From the NCBI RefSeq assembly GCF_035918095.1, contig NZ_CP109137.1:2420001-2484000 (forward strand): a stretch of 64,000 bases of DNA, in the 5' to 3' direction. This stretch comes from Streptomyces sp. NBC_01750. Lineage in GTDB: Bacteria > Actinomycetota > Actinomycetes > Streptomycetales > Streptomycetaceae. The notes below the pieces were generated by a model. The model saw only the letters and a program-made list of their open reading frames with translations, was not told the origin of the DNA and made no database searches. This document shows, piece after piece, positions 28,777-34,553 of the stretch. Made by a program: the position numbers and the translations under genes. Numbering within the stretch: position 1 is the stretch's first letter; each line of letters begins with the position of its first letter.

Positions 28777-30188
28777 CGGCCGGTGACCTCACCCTCGGTG
28801 GTGTTCTCGAGCAGTGCCTGGGCCACCCGCTCGAGCCCGACCGACCTGGAAGCCTTCACCAGCACGACGTCTCCCGGACGCAGCTCACTGCGCAACAGGT
28901 CGACCGCCGCCTGCGCGTCGGACACGTGCACCGACTCCTCACCCCACGAACCCTCGTTATATGCGCCCAGTTGCAGCCAGGACGCTTCCCTGCCCCCGAC
29001 TGCGACGAGCTTGCTGACGTTGAGCCGGACGACCAGCCGTCCGACAGCGTCGTGCTCGGCGAGCGCTTCGTCGCCGAGCTCGGCCATTTGGCCGAGCACC
29101 GCCCAGGTCCGCCGCCCCTGGCCCATGGCCGCGAGCGCACGCAGCGCCGCTCTCATGGACTCGGGGTTCGCGTTGTAGGCGTCATTGACGATCGTCACGC
29201 CGTCCGGACGCTCGGTGACCTCCATCCGCCAGCGGGAGAGGGTGCCCGCCTCGGAGAGCGCGCGGGCGATCTCATCGACGGACATGCCCAGCTCATGGGC
29301 GACGGCGGCCGCGGCGAGCGCGTTCGACACGTGGTGCTCACCGTACAGCCGCATGGTCACGTCGCTGCACCCGGAGGGTGTGTGGAGCCTGAAAGCGGGC
29401 TGTCCGTTGTCTGTGAGCCGGACATTCTCGGCACGTACGTCGGCGTCCTCGGCCTCTCCGAACAGGACCACACGGGCCTTGGTACGGGAGGCCATGGCGC
29501 GTACGAGACGGTCGTCGGCGTTGAGTACGGCGATGCCCCCCGCTGCCGCCGGGGGAAGGCATTCGATGATCTCCCCCTTGGCCTCGGCGATCTGCTCGCG
29601 GCCGCCGAACTCGCCGATGTGGGCGGTGCCGACGTTCAGTACGAGACCGACCTTCGGCGGGACCAGACTGGTGAGGTAGCGGATGTCGCCGATATAGCGG
29701 GCGCCCATTTCGAGGACGAGGTGCTCGGTGTCCTCGCCGGCTCGCAGCGCGGTCAGCGGCAGGCCGATCTCGTTGTTGAGATTGCCTGCCGGGTAGACGG
29801 TGGGGCCTTTGCGCTCGAGGAGTTGGGCGATGAGGTCCTTGGTGCTGGTCTTGCCGGCCGAGCCGGTGAGCGCGACCGTGGTGGTGCCGAGGCGTTCGAC
29901 GACGGTGCGCGCGAGGGCGCCGAGCGCGGCGGTGACGTCCGGCACGACGATCGCGGGTACCCCGACGGGGCGGGTCGCCAGCACGGCCACCGCACCCGCC
30001 GCCACGGCGCTCCGGGCGTAGTCGTGGCCGTCGACGTGCTCGCCGGCGAAGGCGGCGAAGAGACTGCCGGGCTGGACCGCGCGGGAGTCGATCACGACGG
30101 GACCGCTGATCCGTGTGGCCGGATCCGGTATGTCGTGCGACTGCCCGCCGACGATTTCGGCGATCTCGGCGAGAGAGAGGGCGATCAC
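28773..30188 (-). CDS. murF: UDP-MurNAc-tripeptide:D-alanyl-D-alanine ligase
   Basis: 471 aa from GTG 30188, with AGGGG upstream overlapping the end of murE, whose stop is 4 nt away. Mur ligase architecture: N-terminal domain IALSLAEIAEIVGG with SRAVQPGSLFAAFAGE, an ATPase loop TGSAGKTSTKDLIAQ, and NDAYNANPESMRAALRAL, the MurF-type C-terminal signature. It completes the cytoplasmic pentapeptide with D-Ala-D-Ala. Its stop overlaps the mraY start. Confidence 0.96.
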   Translation of the reverse strand: MIALSLAEIAEIVGGQSHDIPDPATRISGPVVIDSRAVQPGSLFAAFAGEHVDGHDYARSAVAAGAVAVLATRPVGVPAIVVPDVTAALGALARTVVERLGTTTVALTGSAGKTSTKDLIAQLLERKGPTVYPAGNLNNEIGLPLTALRAGEDTEHLVLEMGARYIGDIRYLTSLVPPKVGLVLNVGTAHIGEFGGREQIAEAKGEIIECLPPAAAGGIAVLNADDRLVRAMASRTKARVVLFGEAEDADVRAENVRLTDNGQPAFRLHTPSGCSDVTMRLYGEHHVSNALAAAAVAHELGMSVDEIARALSEAGTLSRWRMEVTERPDGVTIVNDAYNANPESMRAALRALAAMGQGRRTWAVLGQMAELGDEALAEHDAVGRLVVRLNVSKLVAVGGREASWLQLGAYNEGSWGEESVHVSDAQAAVDLLRSELRPGDVVLVKASRSVGLERVAQALLENTTEGEVTGR

Positions 30189-30192
30189 TTGG

Positions 30193-31860
30193 TCACCCCT
30201 GACTGTTCTGGATAGCTGCGCGAAGTACCTGACGGTCGTCGAAGGGGCGGACCACTCCGGCGATGTCCTGGCCCTGCTCATGGCCCTTGCCGGCGATCAG
30301 CACGGTGTCACCGGGCTGCGCGCGGGCCACGGCCGCGGCGATGGCCGCGGCCCGGTCGGCCTCGACCAGGACATCGCCACGCTCGTGGATCGGCACCTCG
30401 GCGGCGCCCGCGAGCATGGCGGCGAGGATCGAGAGCGGGTCCTCGGACCGGGGGTTGTCGGAGGTCAGTACGGCGGTGTCGGCGAGTCGTGCGGCGGCGG
30501 CGCCCATCGGGCCGCGCTTGGTCTGGTCGCGGTCGCCGCCGCAGCCGAGCACGATATGCACCTTGCCCTCGGTGACCTTGCGCAGGGACCGCAGGACCGA
30601 TTCGACGGCGTCCGTCTTGTGGGCGTAGTCGACGACGGCGAGGTACGGCTGGCCCACGTCGACGCGCTCGAGGCGGCCCGGCACGCCGGGGACTGCGGCA
30701 ATGCCGTCGGCGGCGGTCTGCGGATCGAGGCCGGCCACGGCGAGGGTGACGATCGCCGCCAGGGTGTTGGCAACGTTGAACGGTCCGGGCAGCGGGGCCT
30801 CGGCGCGTACGCGCTCGCCCCGGGGACCGACCGCGGTGAAAATCGAGCCGACTGCGCTGATTTCGACGTTCTCGGCCCGCCAGTCGGAGTCCGGGTGGCC
30901 CTCGGCGGAGAAGGTGGTGACCGGGACGGATGCCTCCTTGAGCAGCCTGCGGCCGTACTCGTCATCGAAGTTGACGACCGCGAGCCGGCTCCGCTTCGGC
31001 GTGAAGAGCTGCGCCTTCGCCTGGAAGTAGTCCTCCATGTCGGAGTGGAATTCCATGTGCTCGGGGCTGAGGTTGTTGAAGACTGCGACGTCGAAGACGC
31101 AGCCGTCGACCCGGCCGAGCACGAGGGCGTGGCTGGAGACCTCCATGGCGACCGAATCGACGCCGCGCTCACGCATGACGGCGAACAGGGCCTGGAGGTC
31201 GGTGGCTTCGGGGGTGGTGCGCTCGGACTTGATGCGCTCCTCGCCGATGCGCATCTCGACCGTGCCGATCAGACCGGTCGAGCGGCCCGCCGCCTTGAGC
31301 CCGCCCTCCACGAGGTACGCCGTGGTGGTCTTGCCGGAGGTTCCGGTGATGCCGATCTGGAGCAGGTCCTCGCCGGGATGTCCGTAGATCTCGGCGGCGA
31401 GCTCGCCCATGCGGCCTCGCGGGTTCTCGGTGACCAGGACCGGCAGACCGGTCCCGGCGGCGCGTTCGGCGCCGGTCGGGTCGGTGAGGATCGCGGCCGC
31501 TCCGAGGTCCGCGGCCTGCGCCACGAAGTCGGCCCCGTGAAGGCGGGCGCCGGGCAGGGCGGCGTACACGTCACCGGGGCGTACCGCCCGTGAGTCGTGG
31601 GTGATGCCGGTGACGCCAGCGGTGCCGGGGCTCTGCACACCCAGCCGGGCGGCCAGCTCCCCCAGGGGTGTCGGGCGGGGCCGGTCCGGTCGGGGCGCTC
31701 CCGGGTGTTTCGCGGGGGCGTCCGGCTCGGTGGTTCGGTACTGATCAGCGTGTGACACGGCGGTGAGCGTACCGGGCGCACCCGGCCCGGGGCGAAGTGA
31801 GGGGGCTGCGGCGGCGCGGTTCTCCGGCAGGTTCCCGGAATCGGAGGTGATGCTTGTCAC
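30193..31860 (-). CDS. murE: UDP-MurNAc-dipeptide:diaminopimelate ligase
   Basis: 555 aa from GTG 31860, with GGAGG 8 nt upstream; a later GTG at 31758 has no ribosome-binding site. The poorly conserved N-terminus (1-65) is Pro/Arg-rich. The Mur ligase core follows, with the ATP loop GITGTSGKTTTAYLVEGG, a carbamylated-Lys region, and DNPRSEDP, the motif selecting diaminopimelate (LL-DAP is expected in Streptomyces). The ribosome-binding site and start belong to a 43-bp tandem duplication shared with the end of ftsI. Confidence 0.95.
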   Translation of the reverse strand: MTSITSDSGNLPENRAAAAPSLRPGPGAPGTLTAVSHADQYRTTEPDAPAKHPGAPRPDRPRPTPLGELAARLGVQSPGTAGVTGITHDSRAVRPGDVYAALPGARLHGADFVAQAADLGAAAILTDPTGAERAAGTGLPVLVTENPRGRMGELAAEIYGHPGEDLLQIGITGTSGKTTTAYLVEGGLKAAGRSTGLIGTVEMRIGEERIKSERTTPEATDLQALFAVMRERGVDSVAMEVSSHALVLGRVDGCVFDVAVFNNLSPEHMEFHSDMEDYFQAKAQLFTPKRSRLAVVNFDDEYGRRLLKEASVPVTTFSAEGHPDSDWRAENVEISAVGSIFTAVGPRGERVRAEAPLPGPFNVANTLAAIVTLAVAGLDPQTAADGIAAVPGVPGRLERVDVGQPYLAVVDYAHKTDAVESVLRSLRKVTEGKVHIVLGCGGDRDQTKRGPMGAAAARLADTAVLTSDNPRSEDPLSILAAMLAGAAEVPIHERGDVLVEADRAAAIAAAVARAQPGDTVLIAGKGHEQGQDIAGVVRPFDDRQVLRAAIQNSQG

Positions 31861-31938
31861 TGGTGGTTCCTCCGGGTCACTCGCCGGGTTCGAAGGTTGT
31901 CACTGGTGGTTCCTCCGGTCACTCGCCGGGTTCGAAGG
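31854..31938 (-). repeat. 43-bp tandem duplication at the ftsI/murE junction
   Basis: Copy 1 is 31854-31896 (43 nt) and copy 2 is 31897-31938 (42 nt); they differ only by one G in a GGG/GG run. Each copy contains the last eight codons of ftsI, its stop, the GGAGG ribosome-binding site and the GTGACAA start of murE. The duplication is exactly head-to-tail. Confidence 0.95.
31877..31903 (-). CDS. Duplication-born mini-ORF between ftsI and murE
   Basis: GTG at 31903 has its own GGAGGA 8 nt upstream and is followed by codons for TTFEPGE and a TGA, so ribosomes can in principle make the octapeptide MTTFEPGE. Its sequence is the murE start fused to the FtsI C-terminus as a by-product of the tandem duplication. 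It may affect coupling of murE translation; no evidence that the peptide is functional. Confidence 0.35.
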   Translation of the reverse strand: MTTFEPGE

Positions 31939-33853
31939 TGACGGGCAGCCGGGCGGGATCGTTGCCGGTCGGTGCGACCTGGAGGGTCTTGAGGGCGAAT
32001 TCCATGACCTTCCGGTAGATCGGCCCGCAGATCTGGCCGCCGAAGTAGCTGCCCTTGGTGGGGTTCTGGATGGCGCAGTAAACAGTGATCCGCGGTTTGT
32101 CGGCGGGCGCGAAGCCGGCGAAGGAGGCGGTGTAGCCCTTGTAGCGGCCCAGTTCCGGGTCGACACGGTTGGCGGTTCCGGTCTTGCCTGCGACGCGGTA
32201 GCCGGGGATACGGCCCTTGGCGCCGGTGCCCTCCTCGTCACCGACGACCGACTCCAGCATGGTGGCCAGCGTCCTGGCGGTCGGCTCGCTGACCACACGG
32301 GTCTTCTTGGGGGCGGGGGCCGGGGTGAAGCGCCCGTCGGGCCCCTTGGTGCCGCGGATCAGGGTGGGCTCGATGCGTACGCCGCCGTTGGCGATCGTCG
32401 AGTAGACGGAGGCCGCCTGCATGGCGTTGAGCGAGAGGCCCTGGCCGAAGGGGATCGTGTACTGCTGCGAGGTGGACCACTTCTGCGGCTTGGCGAGGAT
32501 GCCGGGCGTCTCGCCCGGGTAGCCGATCCCGCTCGGGCTGCCCAGACCGAATTTCCGCAGATAGGAGTACAGCACCCGATTCGCCGCCGCCTGAGTCCCG
32601 CCGAGCTGGCCGGTCGCGAGGATCGTGCCGATATTGCTGGACTTGGCGAGCACGCCGTTGAGCGTCAGGTGCCAGGTGGGGTGGTCGATGTCGTCCTTGA
32701 AGAGCCGGTCGCCGCGGTGCAGCCGGTTGGGCACAACGACATGCGTTCCGGGGGTGGCGGCCTTCTCCTCGAGGACGGCGGCCATCGACATCACCTTGGC
32801 GGTGGAGCCGGGTTCGTACGCGTCCTGGAGCGCGGCGTTGCCCATGGCCGCCGAGTTGGCCTGGGAGAGATCATTGGGGTCGAAGCCAGGCGCGTTGGCC
32901 ATGGCGAGGACCTCGCCGGTCTGGGTGTTCTGCACTATCACGTAGCCGCGGTCGGCCTTCGACTTCTTCACCTGGTCGGCGATGGCCTGCTGGGCGGCCC
33001 ACTGGATGTCGCGGTCGATGGTCAGCTCGATGTCGGAGCCGGGGACGGCGGGGACCTCGCGGGAGCCCGCGGTGGGGACCCGCCGGCCGCCGGACTGGGC
33101 GTAGGTGATCTGTCCGTCCTGACCGGCGAGGACCTTGTCGAGCATCGACTCGACGCCGCCGCCTCCCTTGCCGTCACCGGTGACATAGCCCAGTATCCCG
33201 GCGGCGAGATCGCCGTTCGGGTAGACGCGCCTACTGCTCGGCTCCTGGAAGACGCCGCTCAGCACATTGGCGCCGGGGCCTCCCTCGGCCTCGTCGGCCC
33301 TGGCCTTCTCGGCGAAGACGCCCTTGAGGTCCTTGATCTGGTTCCAGACCTGAGGGGTCTGGCGGCGTGCCAGCACGGTGTACCGGGATTTGGGCGTCCT
33401 GAGCTTCTTCGCCAGCTCGTTGACGTCCTTGCCGAGGATCGGGGCGAGCAGCGCGGCCGCCTGTTCCGGAGCGTTGGGAGCCTTGCTCTCCTCGGGCGTG
33501 AACAGCTTCGGGTCGGCGGTGATGTCGTACGCGTCGACGCTGGTGGCCAGGGCGATTCCGGCCCGGTCGGTGATCTCGCCGCGCTCCGCCGTCAGCTTGT
33601 GGCTGAGGTAGCGATTCTTCTCCGCCTTGGCGGCGTACGCGCCGGCGTCGACGGCCTGCACCTGGAGCAGCCGGACGACGAAGGCCAGCATGACGAGCGT
33701 CAGGCCGAGGCTGACCAGCCGCAGCCGGGGGCGGGGGCTGCCGAGCCGGATCGGGCGGGCCGCCGGGCGCGGCCGCCGACGGACCGCAGGACGTGCGGAC
33801 GGCCGCCGTGCGGGGCCCGGGACGCGGCGGCGCGGTGGTTCCTTGAGGGGCAC
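31919..33853 (-). CDS. ftsI: Septal class B penicillin-binding protein FtsI (PBP3)
   Basis: 644 aa from GTG 33853, with AGGTGA overlapping the ftsL stop; an in-frame ATG at 33916 would overlap ftsL. A basic N-terminus, a single membrane anchor (about 47-66, LVSLGLTLVMLAFVVRLLQV), a PBP dimerisation domain and a transpeptidase domain follow. Active-site motifs are STAK (Ser at about 350), SSN in LAKSSNIGT and KTG in AGKTGTAN. It cross-links septal peptidoglycan with FtsW as polymerase partner. Its 3' end lies in the tandem duplication. Confidence 0.96.
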   Translation of the reverse strand: MPLKEPPRRRVPGPARRPSARPAVRRRPRPAARPIRLGSPRPRLRLVSLGLTLVMLAFVVRLLQVQAVDAGAYAAKAEKNRYLSHKLTAERGEITDRAGIALATSVDAYDITADPKLFTPEESKAPNAPEQAAALLAPILGKDVNELAKKLRTPKSRYTVLARRQTPQVWNQIKDLKGVFAEKARADEAEGGPGANVLSGVFQEPSSRRVYPNGDLAAGILGYVTGDGKGGGGVESMLDKVLAGQDGQITYAQSGGRRVPTAGSREVPAVPGSDIELTIDRDIQWAAQQAIADQVKKSKADRGYVIVQNTQTGEVLAMANAPGFDPNDLSQANSAAMGNAALQDAYEPGSTAKVMSMAAVLEEKAATPGTHVVVPNRLHRGDRLFKDDIDHPTWHLTLNGVLAKSSNIGTILATGQLGGTQAAANRVLYSYLRKFGLGSPSGIGYPGETPGILAKPQKWSTSQQYTIPFGQGLSLNAMQAASVYSTIANGGVRIEPTLIRGTKGPDGRFTPAPAPKKTRVVSEPTARTLATMLESVVGDEEGTGAKGRIPGYRVAGKTGTANRVDPELGRYKGYTASFAGFAPADKPRITVYCAIQNPTKGSYFGGQICGPIYRKVMEFALKTLQVAPTGNDPARLPVTFEPGE

Positions 33854-33857
33854 TGCG

Positions 33858-34553
33858 TCACCTGCCGGGGGTCGTCGGGGGCGGCTTCGCGGGTTCCTGC
33901 GACGGCTTGGCCGCATTGGCGGGCGGGGGCTTGGCGGGCGCGGGGGGCGCGGGCTTGGCGGGCGGGGCGGGCGCCGGCTTGGCGGGCGGGGCGGGCGCGG
34001 GGGTCCGAGGCGCGGGCGGGGCTGCGGGCGCGGACTGCTGTGCCTGCCCGGTGGGCGGGGCGGATGCGGAGGGGTGCGCGGCGGGAGCCCGGTCCGGGCG
34101 GGAGGCGGACGGCGCCGGGGATGCCGGGAGCGTCGGCGCCACCGGTTGCTGGATCTCCATGGGAGACGGTTCCGGGCGGGGCTGCCCCTTGGCCTCGCGG
34201 GGCACTCCGCGGACCGTGCCGTCCGGGTCCAGGAAAGCGGGACTGCCTCCGGGCACCATGCCGAGCTCGCGGGCCCGGCGCTCGAGCGCGTCCGGGGCGG
34301 AACGGTTGTCCACGTCCCGCTGCAGCGCCTGTTCCTCGTCGGTGAGCTCGGTGGTCTGCTTCTTGAGCTCGCTCAGCCTGAACGAGCCCTCGTTGAGGGC
34401 GGAGTTCAGCAGGAGCAGCGTGATCAGCCCGCCGCTGAGGAGGAGCACGACCAGCAGGACGAAGGGGGTGCGGGCGGCGGTGCTCGGCCCCGACGGCATC
34501 AGCCGCGCGAGCCGCGCCGCCCGCCCCTTCAGCTGCTTGGCCGCTGCGCTCAC
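33858..34553 (-). CDS. ftsL: FtsL-like divisome membrane protein with Pro/Ala-rich tail
   Basis: 231 aa from GTG 34553, overlapping the rsmH stop as GTGA. A cytoplasmic basic N-terminus and one membrane helix (about 30-50, [19 protein letters not shown]) are followed by a short leucine-zipper coiled coil (about 58-100, [20 protein letters not shown]). A long extracellular Pro/Ala/Lys tail (about 120-231) with repeated PAPPAKPA units completes it. The position between rsmH and ftsI identifies it as FtsL, which bridges FtsQ and FtsW-FtsI. The extended tail is far longer than in most bacteria and may interact with the wall (inference). Confidence 0.88.

Follow-up and report, generated by a model that had tools for sequence, protein, structure and literature searches.

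The window, a 64,000-nt stretch of Streptomyces sp. NBC_01750 (contig NZ_CP109137.1), contains the junction between the cell-wall genes ftsI and murE on the minus strand. The gene order around the two genes appears to be that of the dcw cluster, the names of the other genes having been read from ORF translations. The features of the junction, in the order in which they are transcribed, are as follows.

31919..33916, minus strand: ftsI, the penicillin-binding protein gene of the dcw cluster (ORF; NCBIfam PBP families; C-terminus of the type seen in relatives)
31898..31939, minus strand: outer repeat unit of 42 bp, with CC (sequence, TRF, and repeat finder)
31912..31916, minus strand: GGAGG preceding the mini-ORF GTG by 8 nt (sequence)
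31877..31903, minus strand: mini-ORF, GTG to TGA, 9 codons and 8 residues, VTTFEPGE (sequence)
31855..31897, minus strand: inner repeat unit of 43 bp, with CCC (sequence, TRF, and repeat finder)
31869..31873, minus strand: GGAGG of murE, 8 nt before its GTG (sequence)
30193..31860, minus strand: murE (ORF; NCBIfam; N-terminus conserved in relatives)
31756..31773, minus strand: conserved element GGTACGCTCACCGCCGTG with an in-frame GTG (31758-31756), inside murE at codon 35

The FtsI protein ends in PVTFEPGE, with the TGA stop of its gene at 31921-31919, and murE opens with the GTG at 31860-31858. The murE start is backed by a conserved VT[T/S]IT.. (VTTITPDPGN-type) N-terminus in the relatives, and the MurE sequence matches NCBIfam NF001124 with 614 bits over residues 79-553. 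At this start codon, pairing between GTGA and TCAC is possible in 156 of the 164 genomes with a murE start of the usual type; a conserved fold was not found there, the fold energy being close to that of shuffled sequences (mean z -0.32; 164 genomes).

Each of the two head-to-tail copies holds the end of ftsI, its TGA, a GGAGG, and the murE GTG with one more murE codon. Read on the minus strand, ACCTTCGAACCCGGCGAGTGACCGGAGGAACCACCAGTGACA (42 bp) comes first and is repeated at once with a C inserted (43 bp), after which the rest of murE is reached. The outer and inner copies show no substitutions and a single indel, the extra C (G on the plus strand) of the inner copy, and base 31854 is a 1-bp end common to both. 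TRF reported the repeat at 31854-31939 with a period of 42, a 97% match, and a score of 165, which is far above chance (30 dinucleotide-shuffled versions of the window reached 88 at most), and the repeat finder gave the same pair. As a class, short near-perfect tandem arrays are not rare in this genome: 11 TRF rows with a period of 20-200 and a match of at least 95% were counted in 864 kb, including the junction repeat, and two of these rows overlap. The tandem duplication proposed in the initial annotation, with copies differing by one G, is therefore borne out by the concordant sequence, TRF, and repeat-finder results, except that its unit is 42/43 bp and not simply 43 bp.

Copies that differ only in the length of a C-run invite the suspicion of an assembly or polishing artefact in a genome that truly carries one copy, as run-length errors are of a common type. 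We regard such an artefact as very unlikely: ordinary reads are longer than the whole structure of 85 bp, the copies differ from each other, and the assembly consists of 3 contigs with a completeness of 100 and a contamination of 1.43.

The outer murE start opens the mini-ORF, which runs in the frame of ftsI and not in that of murE. Its annotated extent, from the GTG at 31903 to the stop at 31877 behind a full GGAGG, was found in the sequence. The encoded peptide, V(M)-T-T-F-E-P-G-E, joins the beginning of MurE to the end of FtsI as had been proposed, although it consists of two MurE residues and the last six residues of FtsI, and not of the FtsI C-terminal octapeptide ascribed to it. From the ftsI stop to the murE start there are 58 nt here, as compared with 16 nt in the closest relative found (G309), and the mini-ORF splits this spacer into two stop-to-start intervals, the first of 15 nt and the second of 16 nt, both having an identical GGAGG 8 nt before the GTG. 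We considered a regulatory leader peptide (attenuator) and rejected it, given that, among the genomes compared, the mini-ORF was found only in this one and that neither an Rfam match (positions 30000-34000) nor a terminator-like site (0 in 31700-32300) was found.

The junction was then compared with those of related genomes. A search of the genus with the junction region matched 384 of 392 genomes, the window genome included, and 168 distinct junctions were compared, representing the window genome and 167 relatives; this selection took in less than half of the draw, for the most part matches with higher scores. A later, partly different draw covered 394 genomes in the family, of which 379 matched, and contributed 7 further junctions, and the junction of genome G336 was added from an exact-pattern search, bringing the total to 176. 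In four of the 168 junctions (L051, L052, L158, and L178), the script used recognised no usual murE start; these were left out of the counts per 164 genomes and are included in the repeat test. Among the 176 same-genus junctions, a near-identical repeat exceeding 14 bp spans the ftsI stop and the murE start in the window genome only, and the other 175 junctions contained no near-identical second or third copy in this test, which is ungapped and penalises mismatches and thus misses decayed duplications (a diverged double start in G336 scored 6). The next best repeats were those of L170 (an array with a 12-bp period, within ftsI), L177 (within murE), and L107 (14 bp long, where the spacer begins).

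No relative closer than G309 appeared in the later family draw. Over eight genes of the cluster, the nucleotide difference between G309 and the window genome is 8.2%, rising to 20.3% at fourfold sites. G309 carries one copy of the unit, with a spacer and murE start identical to the inner copy, and the outgroups G030, G129, G174, G157, and G662 (L245) also have one copy each. Genome G157 equals the outer version over the spacer and start, so that the ancestral C-run could have had either length. The comparison with relatives suggested in the initial annotation has thus been carried out, and among the junctions compared, two near-identical copies occur in the window genome alone. An ancient conserved element, for which all relatives would carry two copies, was rejected on the single copy of G309 and the lack of a near-identical second copy at the other junctions compared. 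On a wider scale, an exact scan of 84,980 species for two occurrences of CCCGGCGAGTGA at a distance of 25-50 nt returned 8 loci, not one of them recognisable as an ftsI-murE junction; its reach is confined to species with CCCGGCGAGTGA at the end of FtsI, and it has possibly left out the window genome itself or very near genomes.

The spacer between ftsI and murE ranges from -4 to 83 nt in the genus, with a median of 18 nt. Spacers of at least 58 nt occur in 23 of 163 relatives, and 22 of those 23 have no SD-led ORF. Such ORFs are rare in the spacer, with three cases in 164 genomes (G000, G057, and G274, the last as locus L157); the mini-ORF of the window genome is not shared, and the other two ORFs are unrelated to it in sequence. 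The one in G057 (L024) has 10 codons (VGPGRAHDPQ) with AAGGAGG 5 nt before its GTG, and similar spacers in G082 and G683 (L250) are without its start. Genomes G059 (L173) and G336 (L195) each have a further sequence resembling the murE start, GTGACCATGATCACC, at 44 nt upstream of the start itself. In both, it begins a frame of 15 codons, the stop of which shares bases with the start of murE (GTGA). This arrangement was found by exact pattern in 2 of 392 genomes, has no good SD by eye, and looks like an older, independent duplication of the start site. The spacer motifs ACCGAGC (27 of 164 genomes) and TGATCAG (14 of 164), some of them repeated (e.g., in L107, L131, L145, and L183), resemble the sequence just downstream of the conserved element inside murE. 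The ftsI-murE spacer seems prone to small duplications.

We conclude, with good confidence, that the structure in the window genome arose by a recent, lineage-specific small tandem duplication that was probably near-neutral, and that the mini-ORF is its by-product. A tandem duplication of 42-43 bp, by slippage or end joining, would have copied the end of ftsI together with the murE start site. The outer murE start would have become a 9-codon frame because its two murE codons run by chance into the frame of ftsI. There is practically no microhomology at the duplication (1 bp). The absence of substitutions in 42 bp places the divergence of the copies at or below about 7% (95%), and this divergence (0/42, one indel apart) is lower than that from the closest relative (20.3% of fourfold sites), suggesting that the duplication took place after the window genome and G309 had separated. 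On these figures, it would be younger than about one third of the G309 split if both copies were free to change, or than about two thirds if one partner at each site was constrained. Perfect identity of the copies could instead reflect constraint or homogenisation from repeat to repeat, which would weaken this age bound. The single copy in G309 and in the outgroups favours a gain in this lineage over a loss in G309. Near-identical head-to-tail copies, practically no microhomology, and a single copy in the closest relative found are features of ordinary, recent small tandem duplications in bacteria, from which the present one differs in its chance position across the border between two wall genes.

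With regard to translation, the extra termination and reinitiation step envisaged in the initial annotation is possible from the anatomy of the junction, which holds a second complete start site and stop. Ribosomes finishing ftsI would restart 15 nt further on, at the mini-ORF, whose translation would end 16 nt before murE and be followed by a restart at murE, so that the supply of MurE would stay near that of the one-copy relative. According to a review (PMC12548453), coupling generally falls as the spacing rises to about 40 nt, with exceptions in which it is already lost at +12 or +13 nt or is kept beyond +50 nt, and ribosomes offered two starts in one phage test system took the nearer one. 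A relay at the mini-ORF would be expected from this weakening with spacing and from the use of the nearer start. The steps at our junction, each with an SD, fall within a spacing for which coupling has been reported, the ranges in that review differing by system. The junction thus resembles known termination-reinitiation coupling in its close stop and start with an SD between them and in the expected preference for the nearer start (PMC12548453), and is unlike it in that the upstream unit is a 9-codon by-product frame of a duplication and the coupling is putative. We judge the prospect that the mini-ORF serves as a relay, with coupling to ftsI roughly kept, to be evenly balanced; this relay, the mutational route, the translation of the mini-ORF, and near-neutrality are all things that we infer.

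A duplication of the same origin may also be inert, the mini-ORF remaining untranslated and murE being started at its own GGAGG or at an internal start. This possibility, which overlaps with our preferred explanation and differs from it only in the relay, is one that we hold to be rather unlikely while still taking it seriously. It agrees with the retention by murE of its own GGAGG and start and with the 22 of 23 long-spacer relatives that manage without an SD-led spacer ORF. Against it, the mini-ORF has the murE start site duplicated in full, 15 nt past the ftsI stop, and a terminating ribosome would likely use it.

Predicted accessibility differs between the two starts. In 73-nt folds, the unpaired fraction was 0.48 for the mini-ORF start and 0.24 for the murE start, as compared with 0.38 for 600 random ATG/GTG triplets; in a 261-nt fold, the values were 0.64 and 0.16, and the murE start of G309 had 0.02. 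The more open mini-ORF start in these models suggests room for a modest gain in MurE. In a bicistronic design, the SD of the gene lies inside the leader cistron. The junction is similar to such designs (PMC10367133 and PMC5995908) in that a short SD-led cistron precedes the gene and could open its start, and is dissimilar in that the mini-ORF is natural, sits behind another gene, and is followed by the murE SD only after its stop. A natural bicistronic relay, in which the open duplicated start would load the leader and open the murE start, MurE would be raised or partly freed from ftsI, and extra copies would act as a dial, is in our view very unlikely.

It had also been proposed that MurE synthesis is tuned by the copy number of an unstable repeat, and a switch of this kind, with slippage among one, two, and three copies altering MurE synthesis, has some grounds: adjacent near-identical copies of 42/43 bp are of a slippage-prone type, and the mini-ORF start is the more accessible one by prediction. 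As in contingency loci and phase variation, near-identical repeat units stand next to each other before a gene. However, in contingency loci the copy number switches the frame or start, whereas here the murE frame is independent of the number of units, and extra units leave both frame and start intact, each bringing its own stop, SD, and start. Copy-number variation was not seen among relatives, in that the other 175 junctions are without a near-identical extra copy and this species is represented by one genome. Long spacers (at least 58 nt) are evidently tolerated in the 23 relatives mentioned above, and the conserved internal GTG of murE may supply MurE in any case. The proposal of tuning by copy number finds no support in these observations, and we consider the switch highly improbable.

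Overall, the duplication looks like a recent accident with little effect, and not like a regulatory device. Taken alone, it leaves the picture of cell-wall gene control unchanged. Its interest lies in being a clean recent case in which a small duplication across a junction yields a translatable-looking frame and breaks neither neighbour, which makes it useful as a natural experiment on how spacing and relays affect coupling, and a caution against taking such mini-ORFs for regulators. Judging by titles and the openings of abstracts, we found no published work on this junction, and none was found on duplication of the murE start site (ribosome binding site and start codon) in Streptomyces.

The conserved element inside murE is a separate observation. 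The codons GGT ACG CTC ACC GCC GTG are identical in all 164 genomes with the usual murE start, and the internal GTG lies 102 or 90 nt inside murE in 148 of them. The N-terminal extension of MurE around GGTACGCTCACCGCCGTG is variable, and even within a conserved part of the MurE body, codons show third-base variation. In an independent pattern search, which counted matches wherever they lay in a genome, 130 of 132 same-genus genomes (the window genome included) contained the 18-mer either exactly or with a single mismatch, and 5 of 15 genomes of other genera had a one-mismatch match. A -10-like box, TACGCT, is located 7 nt upstream of the internal GTG. For Streptomyces griseus, 364 leaderless mRNAs and a -10 motif ANNNT are given in PMC8914203. 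The element is possibly an internal leaderless promoter and start that would give a shorter MurE; a consensus scan speaks against this with 0 sigma-70-like promoters in 31700-32300, at a cut-off that TACGCT could not pass. Initiation at residue 35 would still yield a complete protein, since the MurE domain match begins at residue 79, and if the internal start is real, MurE would not depend wholly on the duplicated junction.
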